A stretch of 64,000 bases of DNA, taken from contig CM038706.1 in assembly GCA_021613375.1 (NCBI GenBank), positions 22,014,866-22,078,865 on the forward strand, read 5' to 3'. The position numbers were made by a program, and so were the translations under genes. Positions 341-20,178 of the stretch are shown piece by piece. This DNA comes from Megaleporinus macrocephalus (lineage: Eukaryota > Chordata > Actinopteri > Characiformes > Anostomidae). Below the pieces are notes generated by a model, which saw only the letters and a program-made list of their open reading frames with translations, made no database searches and was not told where the DNA came from. How positions within the stretch are numbered: the first letter of the stretch is position 1; each line of letters opens with the position of its first letter.

Positions 341-1271
341 TCAAGTAAAGTGATACGAATTATTCTTTAAAAAAATTTGGGTAAACAAGGGATGAATTAT
401 TTGCATGTTTTTTATTGAGTTAAAAAATAGAAGTAAGGGAAACGAAAGTGGCACTCTTTTTGACACCTATATTTTTAGGAGTGCATGCTGGAGAAAATGC
501 AGTATTGTTTATCTTTGCAATTTCTCTTTAAAGGTTGGATGTTACCTAGAAAGCCTGCAAAGAATAATTCTGTGTCAGGCTTCAAATAAGGTTGCTGTGT
601 GAGGTTTACAAAAAAAGCCTGCTTAAAATATCCTTTTAGCTTCTGTCTGGCAAGCTGGGGAGAGTCACGGACAAACATTTCACTGCCACAAGGGAGAGAG
701 AAAGAGAGCGCTGAATTGTGTTTTACAGAAAACTCTGTGATGCTTTGGCCAAAAGTTAGCACTCAGAGGCCATGGGGTCTGAGATGAAACCATAGCTAAT
801 TAGGCAGAATCAAACAGCTCCATCACACACATACTCAACACACACACATACACACACACACGCACACACACAGTCTTGTAATTAACTCTTGATGGGGACA
901 CTAGTCAGGCACATGCTTTTCGGGGACACCACTTTCCTGTGGTCCTACAGACGTGAAAAAAATCATGTATGCATAATTAAAATTAGGGAACATGAAAATC
1001 ATCTCAGATTTTTGATTTAAGCAAATACATTGTCCAGTGTGGTATGATCACGCCAAATGGGGACTTTGGATAAAATTTGCATAACACAGAAATTAGCTAA
1101 TGTATATAGCATAATGGGGACAACACTAGGAACCTAATTTGCATACACACCAATCAGTTAGTTAGAGAACATCACGGGGACACCATTTAAAAACATGCGT
1201 TTACAAATGTAACTTACTTTCTGTAGGTTAATAAACAAGACAGCCATCAAGGTTAACGTAATTGCTTCTTT
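341..1271. other. Gene 3' flank with CA tract and TGGGGAC repeat
   Basis: No gene seen. It holds a (CA)n-rich tract (about 826-872), then GTCTTGTAATTAACTCTTGA followed by TGGGGACAC (873-901) and further GGGGACA words to about 1180. This looks like a dispersed MITE-like repeat. Confidence 0.5.
873..901 (+). repeat. Left member of the inverted 29-bp repeat bracketing the gene
   Basis: GTCTTGTAATTAACTCTTGA plus TGGGGACAC. It matches the reverse complement of 17392-17421 with about three differences. A (CA)n tract lies immediately outside. Confidence 0.6.
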
Positions 1272-1277
1272 TTTATT
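1272..1277 (-). terminator. Candidate polyadenylation signal of the chimeric gene
   Basis: AATAAA on the minus strand, 314 bases past the stop codon, with a T/G-rich stretch downstream (1230-1256). It is the first canonical signal I find after the stop. Confidence 0.45.
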
Positions 1278-1590
1278 TTAGTTAAGTAACTCTAATCACA
1301 ATTAGAAAACCTAGTACATAAAACAGAATAATAGTTTGGCAGTTTTTGTTGCACTGTACCAGAAACAATTACATGCACATGTAACTAGTGCGCTGCTCTA
1401 CCTAAATTCAACATAAAAATCTCTTTTTAGTTTAAAATAAAAGAAAACATACTTACCAGCTTGGTTTTCTAAACCACAACCTGGTGGTAAACACTGCCAA
1501 ATACTTTTTTGACGAGGCAAAGAATCAGATTTTTTTTTAAACATAATTTCAGTTTTGTCAATCCAAAAGTTACATAAAACAAAAGTACAA

Positions 1591-1817
1591 TTACTGGGTT
1601 ATGTCTCTTTTGTAAGCCACAATGCGATTGTGAACATAGAATTTGACACTTTGCCAGTCTCTGTCTTTAAGTGCTGAAGGCTCAGCTCTTATGCACTGTT
1701 CACAAGCAGCCTTTCCTGGGACACGACATGAAGTAATGAAGTTTTTCAGGTGTCTTTCTACAGCCTGGATCTCTTTTGTTTCCCAAGCTTTTCTTCTTTT
1801 TGGTGTTGAGGTTTTAC
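1591..1817 (-). CDS. Terminal exon: basic, Trp-containing C-terminal domain
   Basis: Acceptor ttcacttttag (AG at 1818-1819), phase 1, 75 residues, then TAA at 1591-1593. It reads KRRKAWETKEIQAVERHL, then VPGKAACEQCIRAEPSAL, and ends DWQSVKFYVHNRIVAYKR. The two Trp and the helical pattern recall SANT/Myb-like modules. I recall similar tails on multi-copy fish recombinase-like proteins (WTEEEV...HL, ...NRI pattern). It may bind DNA, by inference only. Confidence 0.7.
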
Positions 1818-4800
1818 CTAAAAGTGAAAAACATCAATATAAACACTAATTAAGTATAATGATAAAGTAAATTAGGAACCTCTTCATTCAATTATGTCGT
1901 ACAACTTATAAGACATAATAAAAAAAACTTAGTGTTGGCATTACACTGGCATTCTACTTAATGTAGATGCAAGCTTAGAGCTGTTTATAACCATCACTCG
2001 CAAAAAGCTAATAAAACGACAAGGGAACAAAATGTGTCCGTGTAAGTGCAACAGAGAAATTTCTTCTTTTTTTATAACAACTTGCAAGTTTAGCACTTCG
2101 TGCATAATTTACATTACAGATGCACTATATAGATGTGCAATTACTGACAAGCTTATATACTGATTGCCCACAAAAATTATTGGGGAATAAATGGCCCATA
2201 TTAAAATAATGTATTTGAGGTAATATATGAAAACTATACTACAAAAAGACAGTTTTGAATTCACCATTTCTTTGTTACAGGAACCAGCCTATGGCAGTTT
2301 AGTCCCACCTATTTACACTAAAGTTTTGAGTGCCTTGTAAATGAGACACAAAACAGATATCATCATATTTTAATCTTAGATGCAAAAAACCTTATTTAAC
2401 AAAAATGTCGATCAATTCTGGTAAATAAAACTACGGAAATCATGAATAGACCTCAAGAACAATGTAAGACATGGACCCTTTAAGCAAAGACAGTGAAAAA
2501 TGTGCTAGCAAATATGTCACAACATGTTTTTGCTTAAATTCAGTTATGTTCTAATTGCTCTAATTTTGTGTTAAACAAAAATTCCTTTAATTAAGTGCAA
2601 AATTTTTTAATACATTAGTACATTCAGAAGCAGTTGATTTTCATGCCACCAGGTGAACAAAACTTAAAATAAAACACTATGTTCTCCCTGGTTCTGATAT
2701 TGTTGCTACTTAGTGATTTAGATTTCTCAGTCACAATGTTAATGCATGTTTTTTTTGTGTAGCTATCCTTTCAACTTAAATTGGCTATTTCTTGTCATAA
2801 CAAAGATATTGGCATGTAAACATGCATCAGGCACAGTAATGTTGTTGTGTACACTTACCATCACTTTATCAGATAACCCTTCATTTCAGTTGTTGAACAA
2901 TTAGAGACTGTACTTAGATTATAGCACTTGGCCACACTGCAACACTTTATCAGTAGACAGTTTCTAACCAGACCACAGAGACACTCTTAGATATATTTTT
3001 AGAGGATGGTCCACTCATGCTTGCAGTGCCCCAAAGTGTGTAAAAAAACCCACCACCCCAGCACAACATACAGGTTTCATTGTCAAAGGTGGTCCTATGG
3101 TGGTCCATTTCTATTCACAAATGGGGCCAAGGGGGCGGCAAATAAGACAATACGCAAAATATATTTAAAAAACACAATGAATGAGGGCAAATTTGTTTAA
3201 AAATGGTCCTTACCTACAACAATAAATTAAACTATGTAACCATAACCTTATTTTGTACTGCCTGGCAGATTAAGTTAATGACAGATTAAGTTATAGTATT
3301 ACCTTGAATGGAAGGTCTCTGACTGGAATTTTTCCTCTCTGGCAGGGACATAACTGTAGTGTCAAGCGGTGATAACTGCATTGCTTCTGGTGATTCCTCC
3401 TGTGTTGCTTCTGGTGAAAAATGTATCAATCAGCATTACATTAAATTCAAAAACATGCTCTACAATAGGAGTTACCTATATGTTTTAAAAATGTCGTTAA
3501 GAATTAAATCTTTAAAAAATATTAAAACATTCATAACAATAATCTGCATAGGACAAAGGTATTCAGCTTTGGCCCTGGATATTTGGTGAGGTTATTTTTT
3601 CAACAGATCTGTCAACAGTACTTGAGTTTGGGGAATAATCAAAATGGTCTGGGTACCAGCTCTCTAGGTAAAGAGCTGAACACCCACAAATAAAAAGAAG
3701 AGTATCACTGGAACAGTTTGCATCATGCCAGTATATAATGACTTTAATTACTATTTATTTGTTGTACACACCAAGGATACATCAAATTCACTCATGAATC
3801 CCATTTTTTCGAGAAAATCAAGAACAGTTGTTTAACTAGTCAATGAAATGCCACACTATTTTGCTGAGATAATGAAAATCTAAAATTACATACCTTCAAT
3901 TTCTTCATGTGTTTCTTCCTCATTTTGTTCTTCATCATCATCAATTAGCTCAATCTCCTCTGCAAAATGCAGAACAACAATGTATTGAAGAACAGAAGAA
4001 CAAATCGCAACATTAAAACATTTATACTGATGTGTGTTGTGTAGAAGAGTGAATTATTGACTGCATAAAAAATGAAAAAGAGAGTTGTTATTTACCATCT
4101 GGACCAATATCGATCTCATCCAAATTCTTGCCTTTGAAGTCCCCAAGTCTCCCTTGTTCTAGGGCCATAAGAACTTTGCTGACTTTTGCAAGCTGGAGGG
4201 TCTTTTCAGGAAGCCGGTAGTATTCCCTGTGAATTCTTATGTCATGCCCCAGGAAGTTTGCTAACTGATCCATGTCTGTGTCCTTCAGGTTTAGAACAGT
4301 AGAAAGAGTGGCAGCATGCTTCCTCAGTTTTGTGGACGTCAGTGCATCAGGATTACGTGCATCACAAGACTTTGCAAAGCTGCGCATACAATCTGAGCCT
4401 CTGTAATGTGACATTGCTGATGGCCGAGCAAACAGATATACATTGTCTTTCAGCACACCACAAGTCTCCCTGTTCTTCACAAGCAACTCTAACGCATTCA
4501 GCATTTTGGGAGTCAGCAGAATAGGAACTGGTCTTCCTCTTTTTCCTCTAATCACAATTCTGGAAAAGTGTCTGCACAGTTTCTTCTCAACTTCTGAGAG
4601 GGCCCAATCTATATCACCATGTGGATCACTGGTGTCCCTGGATAAGAATGCAGAAAGAAGCATACTTGATACCTCTCCCTCTCTGCGGCGGTTAAAGAGG
4701 ATGATCTGAGTCAAAGCAACCTTTGCAAGCTCTGACCAGTACTTAGTCATCGGCTCTGTTGATAACTGCCTGATGCATTCATCTTGCATTTTATTGAGGA

Positions 4801-7800
4801 ATGTATGAAGTTTTTGCACATCTTCCGTAAAAGGCAACATTGTGGGGGCATTCCACTTCGACTCCTCAAGATTTCGTGCTGCTGTTGCAGAGATCAATTC
4901 ACACCACCGTTCTTTATGTATTTCCTGAAAATGACTGAGCTTCTGTGCTGAACAGTGGTCTTTTGCAATCAAAGCTTTGGCCTTTACAAGTTTGCTGAGC
5001 TTCATTAGGCTTATTCCAAGTTTCTTTGCTAGAGAAGGAGTTTTGTATGTGTTGGCATCACTATCATATCCACATGTGTGTCTGACAGCTTGAATCATTT
5101 TTATGTAGTTTTGTGGATCTATAAAATCTTCCATTGTCTTCAGAGATGCAACTTTTTTGCCAGTGATCAGTAGTTTTCCTAGTTCTCGCAACTTCTGTCG
5201 TACGCATGCCTCATTCTTGGCAGTTGATCCACCTTTATTAAGCAAATGCTCTCCCAGCTGAATGATGCAGCTATCATTTCTGACAGTAGCTGTGATTTCA
5301 TCTGCATTCATGAGGCTTAAAGTCTTCCAAAGTGCTCTGCTTATGTGTGATGGTACAGGCTGTGTGAACGCACAGAGAGACTGAACACGGTTTTTTCCAG
5401 GTTTTGGAGCACAATCTTTAGGGCCTAGTTTACAGACCTTCATGTGTCGCCAAAGAACACTCCTGGTAAATAACCCTTGGCAGTATGCACAATGCATGAA
5501 GTCAGTGCCTTCTGCTTTCTTCGGTGGTCGCTTGTATGGAACCAGTTCTCCCTTTCCTGTTTTAAGCACAGAGGCATTATGTGCAAAGTTCCCTCTGTGA
5601 CGTAAATCATCTAAACGTATTCTTCTCTGTTTAGAATTCTTGGGGAAACTGCACGCTTCAGCCACTTCTCTTTCATTTGAATGCACATACTGTAGATGTC
5701 TTGCAATCTTGCTAAAAGGTTTCAAGCAAAACAGACAGTAATGTTTCTTGTCATATACTCTACGACCATCACATTTTCTTTTGACAGCATTAACAAATAT
5801 TGTCCCTTCTTGTTGCATACGCTCCGAACTGCTGCAGACTCCATCACTCTCTACCACTTGGGGTCTTTGCCTTTGGCTTGGCCTTTTATTTAGATCCATG
5901 ACTTCATGCTCTCTTGCCTCCGTTACATTCATGACACCTGATGATGTGCTATCAGGGACAGGATTACAAGGGGAGGCTTCATCTATGAGAGACTGACGGC
6001 TCCGTTTCAGGGGTTTAAGGGATATACTACTGTCTGAACTACTCTCTTTGTCTCTAGAGTTAGGAATGTACTCCTCCTCACTGTCTGGGGTGGAATCAAA
6101 CAGCTCATCTGACTCTTCAGGAATTAAACCTCTCATCTAAAATCAATAAAATAACTATTACATTTTTAAATGTAAAGGTTTCAATTTATGAATTGTTTTT
6201 GTCTCTTTTAGAATTGATAGGAAACACTTACTGCAACACTTTTAGTTCTCCGTAATCTTGGTACATGTACATCCTCTTCATCAGTGTCTTCCAATGAACT
6301 CTTCAACATAAAAACAAAAAAACATTGTTAGGAGAGTTGCAGAATAATCAGTGTATCAGGGAATCCTGTTCATGATTGCACAAATCCTGTTCATGACATA
6401 GTTGCACAAATGTTATATTATAAATCTATCCAGAATTTAAACAGGACCAGGAGCAACCAGGCAACCAATCGCTTAGACTTTGTTATAACACCACTGACAG
6501 TCGACTGGGGAATATTTAGTATTGAGGAAATTTCACGACTGGACTTGTTGCACAGGTGGCGTCCTATCACACACAGTGTGAGTAAATACTTTAGCAATAA
6601 TATCGTGTAGATCACGTAACTGTTCCTCCTCAAACCACAACAGTCTCAGATCTCAGACCTAGCACCTTTATTGCTAACCTACCAGACCTGTCAAATTAGA
6701 TGTGGCTAGATGTGGCTATATCCCAAAATCTCTTAAATTAGCAGTAATTTAACCTCAAATTTAGAAACCTAATTTTGATCCCCATCAAATTTTAGAGCTC
6801 TCTAAAATCTTCCCTTTATATCTTTTACGTAACACATTTTGAAATCCTGTGACTCGTGGGGACACTATCCTAACTGAGAGCATCTGTCCAACATAGATCT
6901 CGTTTACACACATCTGACTAAAACCTGTGTTGTGGGGACTCCGTGAGGTCAACAAAAACAATAAAGAAAACACACAAAAAATAATGTTTTGGAACTTCAA
7001 ACTTTGCTCAAGAAATGCTTTTCCACTTTGATATTCTCATATCTCATAATGTAATAGTACATACTATAGTTTACACTGATAAGCAGGTCATACAGTAAGC
7101 TAAATTTCAACTGGAGTGTAAGAAACACTTGTGTTAGACTGTGATAGACTTACCTGATTCATTGCTGAGGAACCAGTAGGCAGTACAGGTCCAGACTGGG
7201 AAGATTGCTCATCATGTTTGGTGTTCATCTCAGAAACCGTATCCTCAATAATCTGTTATATAACATGGCATATTTAGTCAATTACAAATAATTACAAATA
7301 ATTAGCATGCACTGAAATACATGTGTATTTTTTTATACAGTTGACACCCCTCAATCAGAGTACTCAAAAAGTCAGTGTTTCAGTACATCAATGCTTAAAC
7401 ATACTTCATGAGGACACTTAACACATTTTGAAATCCTGTGACTCGTGGGGACACTATCCTAACTGAGAGCATCTGTCCAGCGTATATCTCGTTTACACAC
7501 ATCTGACTAAAACCTGTGTTGTGGGGACTCCGTAAGGTCAACAAAAACAATAAAGAAAACACACAAAAAATAATGTTTTGGAACTTCAAACTTTGCTCAA
7601 GAAATGCTTTTCCACTTTGATATTCTCATATCTCATATTGTAATAGTACAAAACTTGGAATTTGTAAGTTTACACTGATAAGCAGGTCATACAGTAAGCT
7701 AAATTTCAAATGGAGTGTAAGAAACACTTGTGTTAGACTGTAATAGACTTACCTGATTCATTGCTGAGGAACCAGTAGGCAGTACTGGTCCAGACTGGGA

Positions 7801-10800
7801 AGGTTGCTCATCATCTGTGGTGTTCATCTCAGAAACCGTATCCTCAATAATCTGTTACAACATGGCATATTTAGTCAATTACAAATAATTACAAATAATT
7901 AGCATGCACTGAAATACATGTGTATTTTTTTATACAGTTGACACCCCTCAATCAGAGTACTCAAAAAGTCAGTGTTTCAGTACATCAATGCTTAAACATA
8001 CTTCATGAGGACACTTAACACATTTTGAAATCCTGTGACTCGTGGGGACACTATCCTAACTGAGAGCATCTGTCCAGCGTATATCTCGTTTACACACATC
8101 TGACTAAAACCTGTGTTGTGGGGACTCCGTAAGGTCAACAAAAACAATAAAGAAAACACACAAAAAATAATGTTTTGGAACTTCAAACTTTGCTCAAGAA
8201 ATGCTTTTCCACTTTGATATTCTCATATCTCATATTGTAATAGTACAAAACTTGGAATTTGTAAGTTTACACTGATAAGCAGGTCATACAGTAAGCTAAA
8301 TTTCAAATGGAGTGTAAGAAACACTTGTGTTAGACTGTGATAGACTTACCTGATTCATTGCTGAGGAACCAGTAGGCAGTACAGGTCCAGACTGGGAAGG
8401 TTGCTCATCATCTTTGGTGTTCATCTCAGAAACCGTATCCTCAATAATCTGTTATATAACATGGCATATTTAGTCAATTACAAATAATTACAAATAATTA
8501 GCATGCACTGAAATACATGTGTATTTTTTATACAGTTGACACCCCTCAATCAGAGTACTCAAAAAGTCAGTGTTTCAGTACATCAATGCTTAAACATACT
8601 TCATGAGGACACTTAACACATTTTGAAATCCTGTGACTCGTGGGGACACTATCCTAACTGAGAGCATCTGTCCAGCGTATATCTCGTTTACACACATCTG
8701 ACTAAAACCTGTGTTGTGGGGACTCCGTAAGGTCAACAAAAACAATAAAGAAAACACACAAAAAATAATGTTTTGGAACTTCAAACTTTGCTCAAGAAAT
8801 GCTTTTCCACTTTGATATTCTCATATCTCATATTGTAATAGTACATACTATAGTTTACACTGATAAGCAGGTCATACAGTAAGCTAAATTTCAAAGGGAG
8901 TATAAGAAACACTTGTGAAAGACTGTGATAGACTTACCTGATTACTTGCTGAGGAACCAGTAGACAGTACTGGTCCAGACTGGGAAGGTTGCTCACCATC
9001 TTCGGTGTTCATAGAAACTGTATTCTAAAAACATCAAGGGGTAGTGCTGTTCTTTACTTTTAATCACTTTAAACATTTTTTAGCTAGTTAAAGAACAAAA
9101 CATTGCAACTTTTTTATACATAACTACATACCTTCTTTCGCCATGGCCAGTCATTCCCTCCATAATCATAGGTAATTTCATCTTTTTCTTTTATGTCTTC
9201 TATGGCAAAGAGACAGAGATGTGGCCTTCCATCTACCTCAATCATCTTCATTTTGCAATTCGGATGTCTGTGGTCATCATTGACCAACCTCCCAAATGAG
9301 CCGTCTTCTTTTGCAGCATCAATACTTTGTAAAAAAGAAACATGTATATAAACACAGCACAAAAACTAAGGAAATTTGTGTTTGGTAGATTATTTCTTTG
9401 TTGGAAAGTCTATAATTTCCCTTTTGAATGGTGCCACATTTGTAAGGAATATGCATTTGTGGGTTGCACCCATGAAAGTTGCTAAATCCTCTCTGCCAAA
9501 CAGCTAAGTACAATTGGAATTGGGATTGCCACTGGTTGCAGATTTTTATCTTAATGGAGATTTCCTCCAATGATGACAAGCCTTGTTTTTCCAATGAGAG
9601 TGATGCCGTCCCACACCATCATGCTGCCTCCACCAAAAGGTGTTACTCTATCGGTGCAGCAACGAGCATAGTGTTCTTCGCGTCTTTTCCAAACTTTGAC
9701 CCTATAAGCCAACTTCCATTTGAACTCATCGCTGAACAAAATGTTCCTCCATATGTTCAGACTTCAATGCACATGTTGCCGACACCAGCCCAAACAGGCC
9801 TGATAGTGAAGAGCAGTCATGGCAAGCCTCCTGGTAGCCCGATGAGACTGGAGATTGGCTGCATGCAGTCTGTTCCGGATTGTCTGGGCAGAGAGCCTCG
9901 GCCATATCAACCTGCAAACCTTGACTGCAAATCTGTAGAAGACAGCCTATGGTACTAAAGTGCATCATCAGGTAACTGGGGGTACCAGAAGCTCCAAACA
10001 AGTGTCAATAGCAACAGCAAAATAAGCTGTTTGGCAATGGCAGAGAAGATTTGGCAAATTTTTCATTGATGCAACCTACATACTTAGCTCTACTTCTCAT
10101 CCCACAAATGCATGTTCCTTACAAATGTGGCACCAATTAAAATGGAAGTTAACAGGCTTTCCAAAGGTATAAGATTTATTACCAAGAAACATTGTTACAG
10201 CTAAGAAATCATCTACCAAGCACAAATTTCCTTACTTTTTGTGGAAGGTTTATATATAACATGGGTTCAGTCGATTTGAAAACTACTAATGACACCAATA
10301 ACTTACCACCACATTTTCCCCTTCCATTTGAAGTCAAACATGAACACAGTGCAAAGACTGTGGTAGAGTCGCCTTCTTCGCTGAGATTCCCTTAAATCAA
10401 TCCTATCTCCCCTGTACTCAACCACAAAATCTCCCTTGTAAAATGGTGCCAGAGCAAAGACACCACAACCTGCAAAAAATTAAAAAACACTGCTCAGCTA
10501 CTTTTTAAATAAGGATCAACAATGTACTTTCAACTCTAAAGTTTAATTAATCTATTGCTTGATAAATATTTAAATTAAGATATTGTTCCACTTAAAAACA
10601 CTAATAAACCAACAGATTACAAATAAACATTAACACAACTGACTATCCCAGAATATCCCAAGCACAGGTGAAAGCTGTTTCTATTTTGCTACTTTAGAAC
10701 AAGAAAAAAAAGTTTCAATAATTTTGTAGTTTAAACAATTAATATAACTTGTTTGATCATAACCATAAAACCACTGGAAATAGTCTTCTCCAGATGCTTT

Positions 10801-13360
10801 TTGTGTATGAACTACCAACTGGATGTCATTATGTAATTTCTAAAACTTTTCTAACAAAAAAACTAGGGCTGCATGATGTATCCTTTCACCATGGTCATCA
10901 TGATGTGCACATGCGCAATAGTCACATTGCAGGACATGGGATGTCACTTAAGGCAAATGAAGCAAACATGTCATGCTGCAAAGTTTTTGCTGCTTGACAC
11001 AAGAAGCAGATTCACACTGTTCTTATTTTACATAAAATACGTGCCAGCGGAAGATTACAACTGCCCAATATAACTTATTTTGCACCAGTAGTGGATTCAC
11101 GGAGTTGTTGTTTTTTGTTGTTTGTAGTGAGTGACGTGCACTAGAAAGTAAGACATCCACTCATTCTTACAGGTCAACAGCTGAAGCTGAAATATTTCGG
11201 CTACAGAAAGGATGATGTTGGCCAAAAGCATGTAATTTGTGAAGTGTCTTGCAGTTCTTGCACTACACGAGTCAATGTGACTAATCTGTTTTACCATTTG
11301 AAGCGCCACCATGAAGCTCTGCATGACGGGTGCAACGCCAGATCTGGAATGCTATACGTAACGCTGTCACACACATATTTTTCATTTGTAAACTGCCGTC
11401 CCAGAGTTGTACAAGAAGTGTAAGAGTTGTACGAGCTGTCGCAAGTGGACTAATATGCCACTACAACAGACATGTGGTCCAGCCGGACAGCGGAACCTTA
11501 GACAAGTTTTGCCGTTCATAACATTAATGAGGATTTCCAGCTGTTTGCAAACACCATTTCTTTCCTGGAGGAGTATTTAGAGCAGGGGTCACTAATAGGC
11601 GGACCACGGTCTGGATCCGGATCCAGATGTTATCCAAAGCGGACCCAAACTGATAAACTATTGAGAATGATTTCATTTTGAGTGTATTTATTTTAAGAGG
11701 CAGAGCTTTTCTTGTCTTTATGGTATACAGGCTTTACGGTGCAGTGAACTCAGAGACCAATCACGTGCGCCAATCCGATCTGTGCACATTGGGGCGTGTG
11801 GCGCGTACACAGGCAAAGTACGGAGACTAAAGGGAGAAGATGCACTTTTTTCAAAATCATTCTGTTTTTTTTATGTAGCTGTTGTTTTTATTAAAGTGAG
11901 AAAAAAAAACATTTATTAGAAGTTTATAAATAATTAATTCAGTTCAGCATTTAAACAGTAAATATACTGAAATATACTGAACGGTATGTGTGGCGTGTTG
12001 GTGTTTCAGTAGCTGATGGTATAAGATGCTGATTCTAGATACTTCAGTAAACAGGATACTCCACTGAATCAGAACACACGTTAGAAATGATGATGGTCCA
12101 GACCGGCCTGAGGAGATCTCCTCTAACTGGACCTTACTGAACTAATTAAATACCCCTGATTTAGAGTAAGAAACATGCATTACTATTATGATGGATCCTT
12201 TACTTCTTGAGACTTTTGGTCAAATCTGGTGAAAAGTCCTGCATTAATGACAAATAATCCGGTAGCGATGGATAAAATGAAATAATCACTATTTTACTGT
12301 TGAACAGCTTGCAAATACTTTCAGAACTGGTGTGCATGTGCCCCAACAGTCAGATTTTATTTTTTGAAAAACAGAATATTTGTTACAGCATCAATGTGTA
12401 AGATGTAGAGAGGATCTATTATCAGAAATATATATTTTTAAAAGGATTTCTTTATTATACAAAAACCTGCAACTACCAATAGTTTTTGTCAGTTTAAAAC
12501 GAGCCTTCATATCTACACAGTAGCAGCTAGTCTAACAGAAACTACCACCACCATGTTTCTACAGTAGCCCAGAACAGACAAACACATACTGACTGTAGAG
12601 AGACTTTTACATTAGCTAAAGCTAAAGCAGCATCTGGAATTAGTTGAAACTATAGCAGGGAGGAACCCTTGTTGAAATGTTCTACCATAGTGTGTATTTA
12701 TCAGTAGCTGCATACATAAAACTTCAGATTATGCTGAAGTTCAGCTTCCTATTAGCCGGCTTCTTGTCTTTTACATTCCATTACAAATGGTGCTAGACAT
12801 ACATTTTGATGCTGATATTCAGCTTTTTAATCAACAGCTTCTTGTTTAAATTTTCTGTGCAGCAGTTATTAAAATGCTTTAGGGGCCAGAGCCGTTTCTG
12901 CTCCATTTAAGGTGAAACGAGAAAATTGAAAGTTAGATATTTAGATATTATTACAACAGCTTGTAGTATGCACCGCTAGAGCATTACATAATGACCATTC
13001 AGGAACCTGTCTGTTAGTTCTCTCTACTACACACTGTAATACTAGCTTCATCGCAAAGTTTCCCCTTTTTCCTTTTTTTGCAGAACAAAACATACCAAAG
13101 TGACTGAGACTACCTACACCAGCTAGACTAGCTCTAACCTGGAGAACCTGGTGTTCCGACAAAATACAGAATATACTTGTGTTGTTGATAATCCCGATTT
13201 GAAATGACAAATTATTATATGTATAAACCATAAACCGAATCCTACCTTTCATGGGATTGATGTACTTCACTTCAAGCTTTGTTGTTTTGTCACTCTTTAC
13301 AATCACATGATGTATGGCATCTTGAAGTGGGCTCACTCTTCGAGGCATTTTTCCTGTCAT
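1591..13360 (-). CDS. Twelve-exon SET-domain / zinc-finger / tyrosine-recombinase-like chimeric gene
   Basis: Coding exons in transcript order: 13360-13246, 10469-10307, 9324-9132, 9024-8938, 8448-8350, 7851-7753, 7252-7154, 6300-6232, 6136-4096, 3959-3894, 3410-3303, 1817-1591. They total 3,366 nt, or 1,121 residues plus TAA. Every junction has AG before and GT after, and phases match throughout. Domains: KMT5A-like SET (39-157), four tandem linker repeats (158-285), Ser/Asp/Glu-rich segment, two Cys/His motifs (about 442-460, 524-543), tyrosine-recombinase-like region (about 775-955), acidic linker, and a basic Trp-containing C-terminal domain (1047-1121). Family knowledge: KMT5A-type SET domains methylate lysine, and tyrosine recombinases cut and join DNA. 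Combining them is my inference from splicing in frame. I recall numerous kmt5a-like and recombinase-like models in fish genomes but cannot name this family. It could be a domesticated host gene or the gene of a large mobile element. Start choice: Met1 has a poor context and Met5 (13348) a better one. Confidence 0.85.
1818..3302 (-). other. Intron 12 of the chimeric gene
   Basis: 1.49 kb, AT-rich, GT-AG bounded. Nothing coding is visible. A GTAAGG-containing acceptor-like site near 3206 was considered for a short alternative last exon but is weak. Confidence 0.5.
3303..3410 (-). CDS. Ser/Thr/Pro-rich linker exon
   Basis: 108 nt, phase 1 at both ends, acceptor ttttcaccag and donor GTAATA (GT at 3301-3302). 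It encodes EATQEESPEAMQLSPLD, then VMSLPERKNSSQRPSIQ. I recognise no domain. The call rests on open frame, matched phase and splice signals. Confidence 0.6.
3894..3959 (-). CDS. Acidic linker exon
   Basis: 66 nt, phase 1 at both ends, acceptor cattttgcag and donor GTATGT (GT at 3892-3893). It encodes EEIELIDDDEEQNEEE and a short tail. Such a run of acidic residues is a typical disordered linker. Confidence 0.65.
4096..6136 (-). CDS. Large exon: zinc-finger motifs and tyrosine-recombinase-like domain
   Basis: 2,041 nt opened by acceptor attgattttag directly before an ATG and closed by donor GTAAAT (GT at 4094-4095). The ATG is therefore an internal Met (residue 309). The first 120 codons are Ser/Asp/Glu-rich. 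Two Cys/His motifs follow: C-x2-C-x9-H-x4-H (YCLFC...QYVH) and C-x2-C-x11-H-x3-C. The C-terminal half resembles tyrosine recombinases: an Arg box RRREGEV, a Lys-turn GKRGRPVPIL, STKLRKHAAT, LANFLGHDIRIHREYYRL. Putative catalytic residues in full-length numbering are Arg793, Lys840, Arg913, His939 and Tyr948; the usual first His of H-x-x-R is Thr910. Crypton-type elements carry such recombinases, but I cannot assign a clade. The exon is uninterrupted for 680 codons, which suggests purifying selection or youth. Confidence 0.85.
6232..6300 (-). CDS. Small acidic/basic linker exon
   Basis: 69 nt, phase 0, acceptor gttgaag (weak tract) and donor GTAAGT (GT at 6230-6231). It encodes SSLEDTDEEDVHVP followed by basic RLRRTKSVA. 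It joins directly to the first codon of the large exon. Confidence 0.65.
6420..6600 (-). pseudogene. Tc1-like transposase fragment in intron 9
   Basis: The minus strand reads SSREISSILNIPQSTVSGVI, a Tc1-type helix-turn-helix. The DNA matches part of the element at 45770-46010 (ACAGTCGACTGGGGAATATT-like and CGACTGGACTTGTTGCACAG). It is a short internal piece. Confidence 0.7.
7154..7252 (-). CDS. Linker repeat exon 4 (33 residues)
   Basis: 99 nt, phase 0. It reads MNTKHDEQSSQ where repeat 2 reads MNTKDDEQPSQ, and is otherwise the same peptide. Confidence 0.75.
7753..7851 (-). CDS. Linker repeat exon 3 (33 residues)
   Basis: 99 nt, phase 0, same splice signals as its neighbours. It differs from repeat exon 2 mainly at one residue (MNTTDDEQ for MNTKDDEQ). 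Confidence 0.75.
8350..8448 (-). CDS. Linker repeat exon 2 (33 residues)
   Basis: 99 nt, phase 0 at both ends, acceptor aacag and donor GTAAGT. It starts IIEDTVSEMNTKDDEQ and ends GSSAMNQ. It is nearly identical to the next two exons. Phase-0 ends mean any copy can be skipped without a frameshift. Confidence 0.75.
8938..9024 (-). CDS. Linker repeat exon 1 (29 residues)
   Basis: 87 nt, phase 0 at both ends, donor GTAAGT. It encodes a Ser/Gly/Pro-rich peptide with the core PSQSGPVL and end SASNQ. It is the most divergent of four duplicated exons and lacks four residues at the front relative to the others. Confidence 0.7.
9132..9324 (-). CDS. SET domain exon B (catalytic half)
   Basis: Acceptor ttttttacaaag and donor GTATGT (GT at 9130-9131) bound a 193-nt exon, phase 2 in and phase 0 out. 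The split codon makes Cys93, giving C-I-D-A as in KMT5A C-V-D-A. The exon has GRLVND, HPNCKMK, the DGRPHLCLFA strand and catalytic-type ITYDYG (Tyr145, Tyr147), then WPWRKK where KMT5A has HPWLKH. The usual NHS of the cofactor-contact motif is N-D-D here (108-110). The fold looks complete; activity is not assured. Confidence 0.85.
9345..10257 (-). mobile_element. Tc1-like element with long terminal inverted repeats filling intron 3
   Basis: The left end (TATATAAACACAGCACAAAA...) and right end read inward as inverted copies over at least 110 bp with small gaps. They include GGTGCCACATTTGTAAGGAA and AAATTTGTGTTTGGTAGAT-like words. The minus strand encodes a damaged Tc1 transposase segment with LFSDEFKWK, VWKRREEHYA and GGGSMMVWDGI. 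Only about 0.9 kb remains of a usual 1.2-1.6 kb, so it is internally deleted. It lies in the same orientation as the host gene. Confidence 0.75.
10307..10469 (-). CDS. SET domain exon A
   Basis: Acceptor ttttttgcag (AG at 10470-10471) and donor GTAAGT (GT at 10305-10306) bound a 163-nt exon, phase 1 in and phase 2 out. It encodes residues 39-92, including GCGVFA (SAM-binding G-x-G), KGDFVVEYRGD and FMFDFKWKGKMW. These match KMT5A GRGVIA, RGDFVVEYHGD and the following strands. It is too short to stand out by length, but frame and homology are clear. Confidence 0.8.
10865..10970 (+). mobile_element. hAT-type end fragment
   Basis: CTAGGGCTGCATGATGTAT resembles the common hAT terminal sequence (TAGGGCTGCACGATAT type). 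No matching right end was found, so it is a truncated remnant in intron 2. Confidence 0.4.
11170..11330 (+). pseudogene. hAT/ZBED-type transposase remnant (BED finger)
   Basis: The plus strand reads KYFGYRKDDVGQKHVICEV, then CSSCTTRVNVTNLFYHLKRH, which is a BED zinc finger (C-x2-C ... H-x4-H type) found at the N-terminus of hAT transposases and ZBED proteins. No long frame continues. It lies in intron 2, antisense to the host gene. Confidence 0.6.
11583..12158. mobile_element. Non-autonomous hAT element with exact 8-bp target duplication
   Basis: Begins CAGGGGTCACTAATAGGCGG and ends TACCCCTG, flanked on both sides by ATTTAGAG (11575-11582 and 12159-12166). An 8-bp duplication with CAGGGG-type ends is diagnostic of hAT. 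576 bp, no transposase frame. Confidence 0.85.
12167..13245 (-). other. Rest of intron 2
   Basis: AT-rich sequence with a few short repeats and no coding exon that I can support. The frame running through the donor at 13245 is read-through of the first coding exon into the intron. Confidence 0.5.
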
Positions 13361-13382
13361 TCATGTGATCTTACTGTGAAAT
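13246..13382 (-). CDS. First coding exon (start and N-flank of the SET domain)
   Basis: An acceptor (ccttggtttag) opens the exon at 13382. The reading frame starts at 13360 and encodes 38 residues ending VKYINPMK before donor GTAGGA (GT at 13244-13245), phase 1. The end aligns with the strand preceding the G-x-G-V motif of KMT5A (compare its GMKIDLIDGKGRG). An out-of-frame ATG at 13362-13364 opens a 24-codon overlapping frame just ahead of Met1. Met5 (13348) has A at -3 and is the better start, which would give 1,117 residues. Confidence 0.75.
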
Positions 13383-13476
13383 CTAAACCAAGGAAAATAA
13401 CATAATATTAATTACAGAGATTCTAAACATAAATATTAGAATGCAATACTATATGGAAAAAGCAACAGTGAAACTG

Positions 13477-13555
13477 ATTAGTAATTAATATTACCACTTA
13501 GTAATTAATATTACCACTTAGTAATTAATATTACCAATTAATATTACCACCACAT
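13477..13555. repeat. Short tandem repeat, ~20-bp unit
   Basis: TAGTAATTAATATTACCACT occurs about three times in tandem, with a partial fourth, in intron 1. Confidence 0.8.
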
Positions 13556-13767
13556 CTTTAAATACAGAGCTCACGCATTAAATAGAGATCCCTGGTTGTT
13601 TACATAAAGATTATCTTACGCACAAATATGCATATAAATATGTACCTGCTGTCTTACATGCTATAACAATCTACTAAAGTTCCTCCTCTAATACTATTTC
13701 TTATAAACACTAACAAAAGGTAGAGCTTTAAAGTAAACTTCAGCTTTTTAAACAGAAAACATCTCCC

Positions 13768-13878
13768 TTATTATTATTATTACTATTATTATTATTACTA
13801 TTATTATTATTAATATTATCATTATTATTATAATTATTATTATCATTATTATTATTATCATTATTATTATCATTATTG
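13768..13878. repeat. (ATT)n microsatellite
   Basis: Interrupted ATT/ATC trinucleotide array in intron 1. Confidence 0.9.
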
Positions 13879-13956
13879 TGACGACAACCGAAGGAAAGAT
13901 TGGATTCACACATTCAGTGATAGATTAAAAAAAGTATACAGAGTATTCCTTCTGTA

Positions 13957-15834
13957 GGTTCTCTCAGTTAAACGGTACACTGTCTGTTCTGGTTCTCTCA
14001 GTTAAACGGTACACTGTCTGTTCTGGTTCTCTCAGTTAAACGGTACACTGTCTGTTCTGGTTCTCTCAGTTAAACGGTACACTGTCTGTTCTGGTTCTCT
14101 CAGTTAAACGGTAGACTGTCTGTTCTGGTTCTCTCAGTTAAACGGTACACTGTCTGTTCTGGTTCTCTCAGTTAAACGGTAGACTGTCTGTTCTGGTTCT
14201 CTCAGTTAAACGGTAGACTGTCTGTTCTGGTTCTCTCAGTTAAACGGTACACTGACTGTTCTGGTTCTCTCAGTTAAACGGTAGACTGACTGTTCTGGTT
14301 CTCTCAGTTAAACGGTACACTGGCTGTTCTGGTTCTCTCAGTTAAACGGTACACTGACTGTTCTGGTTCTCAGTTAAACGGTACACTGTCTGTTCTGGTT
14401 CTCTCAGTTAAACGGTACACTGACTGTTCTGGTTCTCAGTTAAACGGTAGACTGGCTGTTCTGGTTCTCTCAGTTAAACGGTACACTGACTGTTCTGGTT
14501 CTCAGTTAAACGGTAGACTGACTGTTCTGGTTCTCTCAGTTAAACGGTAGACTGTCTGTTCTGGTTCTCTCAGTTAAACGGTACACTGTCTGTTCTGGTT
14601 CTCTCAGTTAAACGGTAGACTGTCTGTTCTGGTTCTCTCAGTTAAACGGTACACTGACTGTTCTGGTTCTCAGTTAAACGGTAGACTGACTGTTCTGGTT
14701 CTCTCAGTTAAACGGTAGACTGTCTGTTCTGGTTCTCTCAGTTAAACGGTACACTGTCTGTTCTGGTTCTCTCAGTTAAACGGTAGACTGTCTGTTCTGG
14801 TTCTCTCAGTTAAACGGTACACTGTCTGTTCTGGTTCTCTCACTTAAACGGTACACTGACTGTTCTGGTTCTCTCAGTTAAACGGTAGACTGTCTGTTCT
14901 GGTTCTCTCAGTTAAACGGTACACTGTCTGTTCTGGTTCTCTCAGTTAAACGGTACACTGTCTGTTCTGGTTCTCTCAGTTAAACGGTACACTGACTGTT
15001 CTGGTTCTCTCAGTTAAACGGTACACTGTCTGTTCTGGTTCTCTCAGTTAAACGGTAGACTGTCTGTTCTGGTTCTCTCAGTTAAACGGTAGACTGTCTG
15101 TTCTGGTTCTCTCAGTTAAACGGTACACTGTCTGTTCTGGTTCTCTCAGTTAAACGGTAGACTGACTGTTCTGGTTCTCTCAGTTAAACGGTACACTGTC
15201 TGTTCTGGTTCTCTCAGTTAAACGGTAGACTGGCTGTTCTGGTTCTCTCAGTTAAACGGTAGACTGTCTGTTCTGGTTCTCTCAGTTAAACGGTACACTG
15301 TCTGTTCTGGTTCTCTCAGTTAAACGGTAGACTGTCTGTTCTGGTTCTCTCAGTTAAACGGTAGACTGTCTGTTCTGGTTCTCTCAGTTAAACGGTACAC
15401 TGACTGTTCTGGTTCTCTCAGTTAAACGGTAGACTGACTGTTCTGGTTCTCTCAGTTAAACGGTACACTGACTGTTCTGGTTCTCTCAGTTAAACGGTAG
15501 ACTGTCTGTTCTGGTTCTCTCAGTTAAACGGTACACTGACTGTTCTGGTTCTCTCAGTTAAACGGTAGACTGACTGTTCTGGTTCTCTCAGTTAAACGGT
15601 ACACTGACTGTTCTGGTTCTCTCAGTTAAACGGTAGACTGTCTGTTCTGGTTCTCTCAGTTAAACGGTACACTGACTGTTCTGGTTCTCTCAGTTAAACG
15701 GTAGACTGACTGTTCTGGTTCTCTCAGTTAAACGGTACACTGACTGTTCTGGTTCTCTCAGTTAAACGGTAGACTGTCTGTTCTGGTTCTCTCAGTTAAA
15801 CGGTACACTGTCTGTTCTGGTTCTCTCAGTTAAA
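13957..15834. repeat. 34-bp minisatellite, about 55 copies
   Basis: The unit is GGTTCTCTCAGTTAAACGGT followed by ACACTGTCTGTTCT. Two positions vary between copies (ACAC/AGAC and GTCT/GACT/GGCT), and a few copies lack four bases (GGTTCTCAG). At about 15385-15795 a four-unit order repeats three times. There are no spacers, so this is not a CRISPR array. It lies in intron 1, about 0.7 kb from the putative promoter. Confidence 0.95.
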
Positions 15835-16536
15835 GAGGAGCAGGTCTGTAACCTGACACCCCCTCCTCCCCTCCCGCAGCACCGCTCCAGCTCCTCTATG
15901 ACTCCTTTACTGGATCTACTACAGCAGATTTAAAGCTTCACTGTCAGCAGAGTGAAGTAATCTAGCTCTACAGTGATGATCCTGTATCTCTACGTCACTG
16001 TCTGCTGCCTGTTTTAACAAGTCACTCAGAAAAAGTTCGTTCTGAGTAGATTAATCGGACGCTAACGGTTAGCATTGCTTCAGTAGCAGGACTGTGTCTG
16101 CTGAACGTCTAAATATGACTTTTAATAGTTACCAATCACACCAGTAAATCTGAACTTGTAATAAATTTACTTTGGAGCTGTTAAAACTCGTTTTTAAACA
16201 CAAACCGCTCCGTGTTTACACTGGTGTTGGAGTTTTAGTTAGCTAGCGCCAGTTAGCAGCACTCAGATATAACACACTGGTTTAATCTTAGTAACTTTAT
16301 TTACTTTATATTCCAGATGTTTAAACTGTCTGACCAGCTCAGTAACTTTATTCTCCAGATGTTTAAACTCAGCCGCTGTCTGTCCAGCTCAGTCTAAGTG
16401 TTTATAGAGAAACCAGGTGAAGTGAATGTCCTGCTGTTTATGATAACTAACGCTCCACTAGTACAGAACCTGCTTTATAATCGTTTTAAACACATAAATA
16501 AAATCAGAGAAGTGTAAATAGTAGAGTGTTTCTTAC
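15835..16536 (-). other. Promoter-proximal part of intron 1
   Basis: Unique sequence with a pyrimidine-rich stretch at 15860-15890 and a short duplication (CCAGATGTTTAAACT at 16314 and 16352). It may hold regulatory sites; no exon found. Confidence 0.4.
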
Positions 16537-16660
16537 CTTTCACTGCGCTCCGAGAAAGAAATCACTAATTAGCCGAGGCACCTGCGCAACACCCAGGAGG
16601 ACTCTATGGCGGTGATGGGAAATGTAGTTCTTCAGCTTCCTGTATCAGTGTTTACGGACC
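16537..16660 (-). promoter_or_regulatory. Probable promoter and non-coding first exon of the chimeric gene
   Basis: On the minus strand a strong splice donor (AAAG|GTAAGA, GT at 16535-16536) ends a presumed 5' untranslated exon. The first coding exon follows 3.15 kb downstream behind an acceptor at 13383-13384. The upstream 100 bases are richer in CpG than most of the window and contain a ZNF143-like site. The transcription start is not determined; 16570-16640 is my guess. Confidence 0.5.
16612..16628 (-). promoter_or_regulatory. ZNF143/Staf-like binding site
   Basis: The minus strand reads ACTACATTTCCCATCAC, close to the well-known ZNF143/Staf core ACTACAATTCCC. Such sites are typical of proximal vertebrate promoters. 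It lies 75-91 bases upstream of the first-exon donor, which supports a promoter here. Confidence 0.45.
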
Positions 16661-17050
16661 GTGAGAGCAGCTCAAAAAAACTACACCCACCATTTTAAGC
16701 TTTAAACAGCACGGCTTTATAGTTTAGCTACGTTCGCTGATTTTAGACTTAATAAATACATTTTACAAACGCAAACATGCATCCACGTTCTCTGAAACAC
16801 CACATAACTCTGACTGAAACTCACTTTTTTAGAAAATATTAGCTGTATCGCAGCACAAAAGTACTTATATTAACTTACTGAAAGCTTAGTATGACCAACC
16901 TCCCAAACCTCGCTTATCCACGAGCGACAACGTGGTATTTTTTATATTTTAATAAACTCAATGATAGTTTTATAAAGATATAAAGATGTTAGAAGCATTG
17001 GGAAATCACTAATGTTATTAAAGTTTATTAAACACACGGTGGAAACTTAC

Positions 17051-17250
17051 TTGGAGAATGTTCCCTACAGCGAGAGTCGCAAACTGCTACTGCGCGTGCG
17101 CACGGGTCCCCTCAGGGCTCATTTGCATAAATTAGACTTGCAGAGTGTGTTAGGCGCGCGGGCGTGGCTCTGACGCTTGCAATTCGCGCTCCGGCCTACA
17201 GGGCTGCTGCGGAGCACGGCTTCACACACACACTTTTGGTCCAATCCGTC
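17051..17250 (-). promoter_or_regulatory. Possible alternative promoter / first exon
   Basis: This CpG-richer block includes GCGCGTGCGCAC-like and GGCGCGCGGGCG-like stretches. On the minus strand it ends in a perfect donor GTAAGT (GT at 17049-17050). It could be an alternative non-coding first exon for the same gene. No coding potential is visible, and the far edge is arbitrary. Confidence 0.35.
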
Positions 17251-17321
17251 ATGGTGGGCCAATTTAAAAGAAATCGAGAGGCACTTAGTTACAGCGTCCT
17301 GAACATGCTGTAGGGGGTCCC

Positions 17322-17355
17322 CCTTATGGGGACCATGGTTTTTGTCCCCATAAGG
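17322..17355. repeat. Perfect 12-bp-arm hairpin
   Basis: CCTTATGGGGAC, a 10-base loop, then GTCCCCATAAGG. Part of the TGGGGAC-type repeat at about 17310-17421. Confidence 0.8.
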
Positions 17356-17391
17356 TTTTGCGACCCCATACGGTTGGTGTGTAAACATGAC

Positions 17392-17420
17392 GTTGTCCCC
17401 ATGAAGAGGTAATTACAAGA

Positions 17421-17421
<1 letters not shown>
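17392..17421 (-). repeat. Right member of the inverted 29-bp repeat bracketing the gene
   Basis: On the minus strand GTCTTGTAATTACCTCTTCA then TGGGGACAAC. A (CA)n tract (17422-17461) lies immediately outside, in the same plus-strand orientation as at the left end. Confidence 0.6.

Positions 17422-17461
<40 letters not shown>
17422..17461. repeat. (CA)n microsatellite
   Basis: Pure CA run of about 36 bases next to the inverted repeat at 17392-17421. Confidence 0.95.
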
Positions 17462-18257: not shown

Positions 18258-20178
18258 CAGCGCCCTCTATAATTATAGGCACCCTTAATAATTATAATAA
18301 TGTTTTTTTTTTAATAATATAGGACAACAATACAAAAAAGAGAAAAACCCAACTTTTAATTCAAGTGCATTTATTCAGTGGGGAAAAAAAAATCCCACAT
18401 TAAGAAATAATAATTTTATGAAATCATCTGTGGCACATTTATTGGCACCCCTGATGTTAATACTATGTACAACCACCTTTTGCTAACATCTTCTCCTATA
18501 ACATTTCACAAGATGGGAGAATACAGAGAGAGGGATCTTCAACCATTCCACTTTGCACAATCTCTCTAAATCGTCCAGAGTCCTCTCCTATGCACTCTCC
18601 TCTTCAGCTCACCCCACAGGTTTTCAACTGGGTTGAGGTTTGGGGACTGAGATGGCCATGGGAGAAGCTTGATTTTGGGTCTGGTGAACCATTTTCGTGT
18701 AGATTTGGCCACATGTTTAGGGTCATTATCTCATTGAAAGACCCAGTGACGACCCATCTTCAGCTTTGGGGCAGGGGCCACCAGATTTTGATTGTAAATG
18801 TCCAGGTATTTCAAAGTTTAAGTTCATGATGCCATGCACTCTAACAAGGTTTCTGGGGCCTTTGGAAGAGAAACAGGCCATACTTCACAATGGGCATGAG
18901 ATGCTTTTCATACTTGTCTTTTGTGTTACGCCAGACCCACTTAGAGTGTTTGGTGCCAAAAAGTTCTATCTTGGTCTTATTAACTAAAGCACACTGTCCC
19001 AGTTGAAGTCCCAGTACCGTTAAGCTCCAGACGGTTATATTTACACTTGAGAGAGAAAAGGCTTTTTCTGTGCATGCCTTCTGAACAGCTTGTTGGCATT
19101 TAGATAGCACCTGATGGTCGTTATGGAGGCTTTCTGACCCCATGATGCTACTAGCTTTGGAGAACATTTATCTTCTCTTATCGTCCTCCTCACTGAGCGT
19201 GGTGGCAAGATAAACCTGCATCCTCGTCCAGGCTTGTTTTCCACTGTTCCAGTTGTTTTAAACTTCTTGATGACTGTAGATGTGGGTAGGTGTAGGAGAG
19301 TGGCTATTTTCTTGTAGCCATTGCCTGACTTATAAAGACCGACACACACGCCTCATGCCTAGTTCACACTACACGATTTTAGCCTGGTTTTTCAGTCGCC
19401 AACTGTTTTTTGCAGATCGCTGACAAAAACTGCTGCTCGGAGGCAAAACGTCGACAATTTGATGCTCGCTCAGTCGAGTAGTGTGAACGGCTGAAAGACT
19501 AGTGCTCACCAACTAATCGCAGATGCCTGGCAAATATCTAGCATGTTCAATATCTAGGCCAGTCGGCGACTGTGAGTTCTATGGTATTGGTAGCTTTCAC
19601 ATGCGTTTAGTTTTCGTGGGTTCTCGTGACAATACATATTTTTGGACTGAAGCCAGATGAGTCGGCGATTCTCCAGAGTAAAAGTCGTGTAATTCGTGAT
19701 CCTGTGTTGCCGATCAGTCATGTAGTGTGAAAGCCACACCAACTGAAACACTCTCGATTACAGCACAATCAGTCACATAGTGTGAACAGCACAAAAATCT
19801 GTTGTGTAGTGTGAACCAGGCATTACTGGAATGGTGTGTTCTCTTGTCCTTCCCATGTTCAAGAGTGGATAAAAGAAATACGCCTCTGTGTCCCATCATG
19901 TTTATATCCCAAGGAAACAGGAAGTGATAAATGACTAATTAAAGGTTTCTAGATACTCTGATCAACTTTATAAACAACAGTAGAAATTACAGAAATGCTT
20001 CAATTACATTTATTTGCTAGTAATTGTTAGGGGTGCCAATAATTGTGGAACAGGTGATTTTATAAAAAATAATTATTTCTTATTCAGGGAGTATTTTTTT
20101 TTTGTGCCTCTGCAATAAAAACTTTTAAGGCTTTTAAGGCATCTTAATGAGGAGTGCCAATAATTGTAGAGGGTGCTG
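18258..20178 (-). mobile_element. Decayed Tc1-like element with TA target duplication
   Basis: Begins CAGCGCCCTCTATAATTATA and ends TAATTGTAGAGGGTGCTG, inverted, with TA on both sides (18256-18257, 20179-20180). The minus strand encodes transposase pieces: YKSGNGYKKIATLLHLPTST (HTH, about 19260-19340) and KIELFGTKHSKWVWRN (18900-18980). Frames are broken. About 1.45 kb remains after removing the nested insertion at 19356-19822. Confidence 0.9.
19356..19822. mobile_element. MITE nested in the Tc1-like element
   Basis: Ends are TGCCTAGTTCACACTACAC and GTGTAGTGTGAACCAGGCA, an inverted pair. TAGTGTGAA recurs inside near 19480, 19726 and 19779. 467 bp, non-coding. Superfamily not determined: the target duplication is ambiguous (TCA/TTA or CAT). 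Confidence 0.75.

Follow-up and report, generated by a model that had tools for sequence, protein, structure and literature searches.

We analyzed a 64,000-bp stretch of the Megaleporinus macrocephalus genome (C5:22014866-22078865, hereafter the window, whose positions are used throughout), which carries a spliced gene encoding a KMT5A-like SET domain and a tyrosine recombinase (YR) in one protein. This SET-YR gene is the only recognised gene within a 16,549-bp mobile element. We read the chimera as real and as belonging to a YR transposon of new make-up.

Structure of the SET-YR gene and its protein

Twelve minus-strand coding exons, running from 13360 to 1591, were spliced in silico into 3,366 nt that encode 1,121 residues with the sole stop codon at the end. 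GT-AG borders are present at 11/11 introns and the phases are compatible, which confirms the single-frame model of the initial annotation. The domain order of the protein is a KMT5A-like SET domain, two finger motifs, the YR and a C-terminal module. A protein search with the 682-residue YR exon gave 525 matches, of which 120 are listed as relatives. Because 26 of the 44 SET-bearing listed relatives begin at residue 5 of the annotated frame, the ATG at 13348 is a likelier start than 13360, the position originally assigned. The coding exons, all placed by the spliced frame and with further evidence in brackets, are as follows.

13246..13360, minus strand: exon 1, coding (start more likely at 13348)
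10307..10469, minus strand: exon 2, first half of SET (Pfam, PDB relatives)
9132..9324, minus strand: exon 3, second half of SET (Pfam, PDB relatives, SET alignment)
8938..9024, minus strand: exon 4, first in the tandem series of duplicated exons
8350..8448, minus strand: exon 5, 33-residue repeat exon (repeat comparison)
7753..7851, minus strand: exon 6, 33-residue repeat exon (repeat comparison)
7154..7252, minus strand: exon 7, 33-residue repeat exon (repeat comparison)
6232..6300, minus strand: exon 8, linker
4096..6136, minus strand: exon 9, finger motifs, helical region and YR catalytic domain (alignments, predicted fold)
3894..3959, minus strand: exon 10, acidic linker
3303..3410, minus strand: exon 11, linker
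1591..1817, minus strand: exon 12, conserved C-terminal module (alignments; no Pfam match over the cut-off)

The SET domain (PF00856) was identified by Pfam at residues 39-148 with an E-value of 9.7e-19. The 14 best distinct PDB sequences are KMT5A/SETD8 (E from 4e-26 to 5e-25, the next family being at 2e-13), in agreement with the KMT5A-like domain described earlier. Among the 36 full-length SET rows drawn from the 120 listed relatives, each with at least 130 SET residues, Y57, N108, Y145 and Y147 are retained in 36/36, and R105 and W154 in 35/36.

The YR catalytic residues R793, K840, R913, H939 and Y948 are present, and a 12-column alignment signature that includes these five residues is intact in 83 of 121 rows (the 120 listed relatives and the window protein). 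The PF00589 match is weak, with E-values of 0.078 for the 682-residue exon and 0.013 for its catalytic part, neither of which passes the cut-off; a PDB profile search returned one weak match, not to a YR. Despite this weak sequence match, the predicted structure of the recombinase-like region in exon 9 is clearly a YR fold. A Pfam scan of the fingers and of the C-terminal module gave no match over the cut-off.

Ends, target sites and copies of the element

Copies of the element were searched for in the 1.28-Gb host genome. Those on C1 and C27 match the window up to 17460/17461 and no further, and on the other side the C1 copy ends at 824. Since the stretches at 17422-17461 and 824-872 are CA tracts, the element itself was placed at 873-17421, a wider span than that first given to the unit. 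Its features are listed below.

873..17421, minus strand (gene strand): whole mobile element, 16,549 bp (copy breakpoints, inverted repeats, CA tracts)
17394..17421, minus strand: 5' inverted repeat, 28 bp (repeat comparison, genome pattern search)
873..900, plus strand: 3' inverted repeat, 28 bp, 26/28 identical to the 5' one (repeat comparison)
17422..17461, no strand: target tract of (TG)n/(CA)n bordering the 5' end (Tandem Repeats Finder)
824..872, no strand: target tract of (TG)n/(CA)n bordering the 3' end (Tandem Repeats Finder)
13957..15834, no strand: minisatellite with a 34-bp unit repeated 55.5 times, located upstream of coding exon 1 and shared by the element copies on C1 and C27

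The inverted repeats score 22 against a maximum of 12 in 200 shuffles, and the outermost 12 bp of both ends are identical and inverted (GTCTTGTAATTA). Across the genome, the 28-bp end pattern matched exactly at 13 sites versus 0 for a backwards control, and 13/13 of them lie in TG-rich DNA. With up to three mismatches allowed, 27 sites were found, against 1 for the control; 21 of the 27 were examined, and 18 of these are TG-flanked. Three loose matches (C5:16622937, C8:41374248 and C1:27666276) are not TG-flanked and were set aside as chance. Ten ends were scored, and their adjoining 30 bases contain 9-15 TG steps, a level reached by 0.03-0.26% of 30-mers in the window, which served as the only background. 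Comparison of 11 flanks revealed one matching pair, the 5' sides of the C5 and C14 copies, where the similarity lies some hundred bases off the junction and at unequal distances. The flanks of the copies on C37 (82 kb) and C23 are almost identical, and the two probably represent a single locus. We infer that integration into TG repeats is driven by the YR.

The YR exon is intact on C5, C1 and C27 at 99-100% identity, and broken, shortened or older copies of this exon were found on C1, C10, C23, C37, C14 and elsewhere, several of them with frame shifts or deletions. Five close intron-containing copies elsewhere in the host genome diverge from the window by 0.20-0.69% in their coding sequence; in the C27 copy, the exon 1 region, the 3' side and other parts read N in the assembly. 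The C1 copy differs from the window by 6 changes in 2,982 coding bases versus 53 in 8,928 non-coding bases (p 0.006), and the C23 copy by 44/2,508 versus 206/4,988 (p 2e-8). No stop or frame shift interrupts the C1 copy in the eight exons that lie outside the tandem array. For the window copy, sharp ends, inverted repeats, TG sites and near-identical intron-containing copies support the proposal, already made in the initial annotation, of an enzyme that belongs to a mobile element. An origin of the copies as retrogenes was ruled out, since they keep their exons spaced apart as in the window.

The spliced protein and ten open frames of at least 80 residues, a subset of the frames of that size, contain no match to a DDE transposase (E up to 0.1) and none to a reverse transcriptase. 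A pattern composed of the TG tract and the first end bases gave 7 matches, 3 of which are at 5' ends of the SET-YR family; one of the other 4 (C17) continues like the inverted repeat and three do not. This pattern, therefore, reveals no large set of small derivatives. Lone 5' ends in TG-rich DNA without a YR match, observed at C16:8446132 and C21:43300725, are truncated or non-autonomous copies. By eye, the stretches at 9325-10306 (intron 2) and 18300-19400 (outside the element) resemble Tc1/mariner remnants; two open frames in intron 2 have no Pfam match.

Distribution and history of the fusion

Of the 120 listed relatives, 44 have SET and YR in one protein, in 43 cases together with the C-terminal module. 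A second search, queried with residues 1-500, listed 82 further proteins, of which 66 possess SET and YR and 16 possess SET and fingers only; the counts of relatives include isoforms and several loci per species. These joined relatives rule out a chance joining of exons and uphold the fusion of SET to a recombinase that had been proposed from the window. All SET-bearing listed rows with a species name come from ray-finned fish, among them Brienomyrus, Anguilla, Megalops, Alosa, cyprinids, catfish, characins, medaka and percomorphs.

In the host genome, 70 matches were grouped by hand into 35 YR loci, with C37 counted apart from C23. A same-strand SET exon is located within 20 kb upstream at 19 of these loci versus 0.019 expected; the remaining 16, including a gene on C3 described below, have none within this distance. 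SET and YR distances in the fused proteins are correlated, with r 0.92 over 37 rows (0/2,000 permutations) and r 0.88 over 21 rows (0/5,000 permutations). The joint occurrence of the two domains and the correlation of their distances indicate that the fusion is old in the line of the element.

In a tree of 71 rows, the window protein groups with the fused proteins of Clarias and Tachysurus (support 99/94). The closest protein among the matches listed, Serrasalmus P0233 (identity of 86% in SET, 94% in YR and 85% in the C-terminal module), was found after tree construction. Near-identical rows are present on contigs of unequal size in Chanodichthys, Rhinichthys, Carassius, Brienomyrus and Metynnis, and six of the seven Alosa loci resemble one another at 81-99%, compared with 41-49% for the remaining one. 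A row from the frog Pseudophryne (P0035, no SET in the model) falls among the fish rows (support 82/71). This position and its 75% identity, over 835 residues, with a Metynnis protein provide a lead to a possible horizontal transfer.

Two clades look domesticated, judging by lost or changed YR residues. The cyprinid clade has kept SET, and its catalytic Tyr is replaced by Cys, Phe or a gap (P0074, P0075, P0080, P0081, P0083, P0084, P0088, P0091, P0096 and P0097); two rows of this clade are annotated rnf214, and the SET residues are kept in the rows that were checked (P0075, P0081, P0084 and P0097). The otophysan clade has no annotated SET, and K840 is changed in 5 of its 6 listed rows, with the Tyr kept. 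A domesticated chimera, which the initial annotation had offered as one of two readings, fits both of these clades.

The C3 gene of the host (C3:35273884-35275617, L016) is an open YR gene with no SET exon nearby, which groups with Astyanax LOC103040472 (path 0.034) and Ictalurus LOC108273236; this clade has altered YR residues. A 2,292-residue open frame at C11:20983470-20989805 (L026, L038) comprises several tandem finger/YR-like units with 27-40% identity to the window and no SET match within 20 kb upstream. The region C25:8306217-8833074 contains seven SET matches over the full profile and one partial match, most with two or three internal stops, and no YR match was found on C25 within 2.8 Mb.

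Proposed mechanism, alternatives and known systems

We consider it probable that the element is an autonomous YR-type DNA transposon, in which a single spliced gene fuses a KMT5A-like SET domain, fingers, a YR and a C-terminal module. This reading is built on the observed gene structure, the YR residues with their predicted fold, the inverted repeats, the TG-tract sites, the dispersed near-identical copies that retain introns, and the joint inheritance of SET and YR. Beyond these, we infer a circle, spacer matching, and the activity and purpose of the methyltransferase. The ends, with their identical inverted 12-mers, would be bound by the fingers together with the segment that precedes the YR, and the YR would cut via Tyr948 and join both ends into a circle. 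There, the 12-mers would flank a short TG spacer, the layout of a lox/dif-like site; in known YR sites, inverted arms of 11-13 bp stand on either side of a 6-8 bp spacer (PMC3212892). The circle would recombine with a (TG)n microsatellite because the spacer alone must match, and the need of a TG spacer for nothing but a TG tract as its partner would explain the target choice. At the ends or at the target, the SET domain, tethered by the recombinase, might methylate lysines of histones or of a partner, which would mark the entry site or quiet the new copy.

A broader proposal, to which we give an even chance, is that of a recently active class of fish transposons with a lysine methyltransferase fused to the recombinase. 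Their inverted ends and TG spacer would form a lox-like site with any TG microsatellite as a landing place, SET would condition chromatin for entry or survival, and the class may have moved between lineages (perhaps from fish to frog) and been domesticated at least twice. If this is true, it presents a direct case of a transposon that brings its own chromatin tool via a recombinase-methyltransferase fusion. With open-frame copies, exact ends and a simple target, excision, insertion and methylation are testable together. The element might also supply a vertebrate recombinase directed to TG repeats, and many fish genes with a KMT5A-like annotation may stem from it.

Several observations weigh against an autonomous YR transposon with an active methyltransferase. 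No excision, circle or insertion has been observed. NDD replaces the NHS motif of the SET domain (D109 for His) in 36/36 full-length rows, and for this reason its activity is uncertain; the tyrosines suggest an enzyme, and the motif warns of a possible alteration. In the R...K...R...H...Y region recognised by the initial annotation, the five residues and the signature hold, but the His of HxxR is Thr in the window protein and, in all, in 108 of 121 rows. No SET appears in 76 of the 120 listed YR relatives and no YR in 16 of the 82 second-search proteins, counts in which partial contigs, gene models and real loss may be mixed. For four of the six copies (those on C27, C10 and C14 and the second on C1), coding and non-coding rates show no difference (p 0.33-0.73). 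The pooled ratio of nonsynonymous to synonymous changes in recent copies is 50:19, close to a neutral ratio of 2.4-3.0 to 1, and a decay of single copies once they have landed would be expected to give such a value. Comparison of the window, C1 and C14 copies gave no constant target-site repeat: perfect direct repeats at the ends reach 10 bp in the window, are 10 bp in C1 and are lacking in C14. A short direct repeat is not separable from the target, since both flanks are TG tracts.

The SET-YR gene could instead be a passenger, carried along while a DDE transposase encoded elsewhere in the genome moves the element and makes its inverted repeats, which are usual for DDE elements. A further point against the YR as the mover comes from sesarmid nimaviruses, in which inverted repeats located in (AT)n go with a Ginger2-like DDE enzyme (PMC10871703), and it is because of this case that we retain the passenger explanation, unlikely as it is. 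It is opposed by the lack of a DDE match in the ten open frames, by YR catalytic residues intact in 83/121 rows and by the 12-bp identical inverted arms, which fit the YR site outlined above (PMC3212892). It is quite improbable that the gene is a duplicated, domesticated host gene with the YR as a relic used for DNA binding. The cyprinid clade (Tyr lost, SET kept) and the otophysan clade (no annotated SET, K840 changed in 5/6) have this appearance, and Crypton-derived host genes are known (PMC3212892), but the window copy has an intact YR signature, copies on other chromosomes have the same exact ends inside TG tracts, and several copies are broken by frame shifts or deletions. The nearly identical flanks of C37 and C23 would suit a segmental duplication or an assembly artefact, which we regard as very unlikely: the 11 other flanks gave one matching pair, away from the junction, the copies end at the same inverted repeats, and the unrelated flanks at C5, C1 and C14 largely refute it.

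We found no report of a SET-YR fusion in the open-access PMC literature (among the titles and abstract openings listed), with Repbase and Dfam outside this scope; Repbase may hold related entries under the Crypton label. The SET fold and the catalytic tyrosines are common to KMT5A (SETD8) and the SET-YR protein, but the latter has NDD instead of NHS, carries Phe rather than Tyr at residue 81, and lacks the N-terminal part of KMT5A. The best-known SET fusion is SETMAR, a single primate host gene with SET fused to a mariner DDE domain, whereas here SET is joined to a YR and the whole fusion is mobile. Both combine SET with a transposon-derived enzyme (PMC8327481). The element differs from DIRS/Ngaro retroelements in having no reverse transcriptase match beside its YR in the spliced protein and the ten open frames, a subset of all frames. 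Fungal and other Cryptons have short direct repeats of 4-6 bp at their termini. Cryptons (CryptonA of medaka and others) resemble the SET-YR element in the YR, in intron-containing DNA-level copies and in low copy number, with no reverse transcriptase found here. However, Cryptons are described as being without inverted repeats and animal Cryptons as being without an extra C-terminal domain (PMC3212892), in contrast to the 28-bp inverted repeats (26 identical), the TG-tract target, and the added SET, fingers and C-terminal module of the SET-YR element. Accordingly, the Crypton type assigned in the initial annotation holds for a YR DNA element without a reverse transcriptase match, but not for the inverted repeats and the C-terminal module.

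The Crypton-derived DUF3504 host genes (ZMYM2/3/4, QRICH1, KCTD1, KIAA1958 and WOC; PMC3212892) likewise combine a YR-derived domain with others within a vertebrate gene. They are described as no longer having the catalytic Tyr or the second Arg, whereas the SET-YR protein keeps both and its unit is mobile; no DUF3504 match appeared in its Pfam results. A precedent for a microsatellite-bound YR is given by endogenous nimaviruses, whose YRs with a C2H2 finger insert in (TAACC)n (PMC10871703). The likeness is in a YR and finger tied to simple-repeat insertion; the nimaviruses differ as viral elements of 278-401 kb (majaniviruses) residing in crustacean (TAACC)n.
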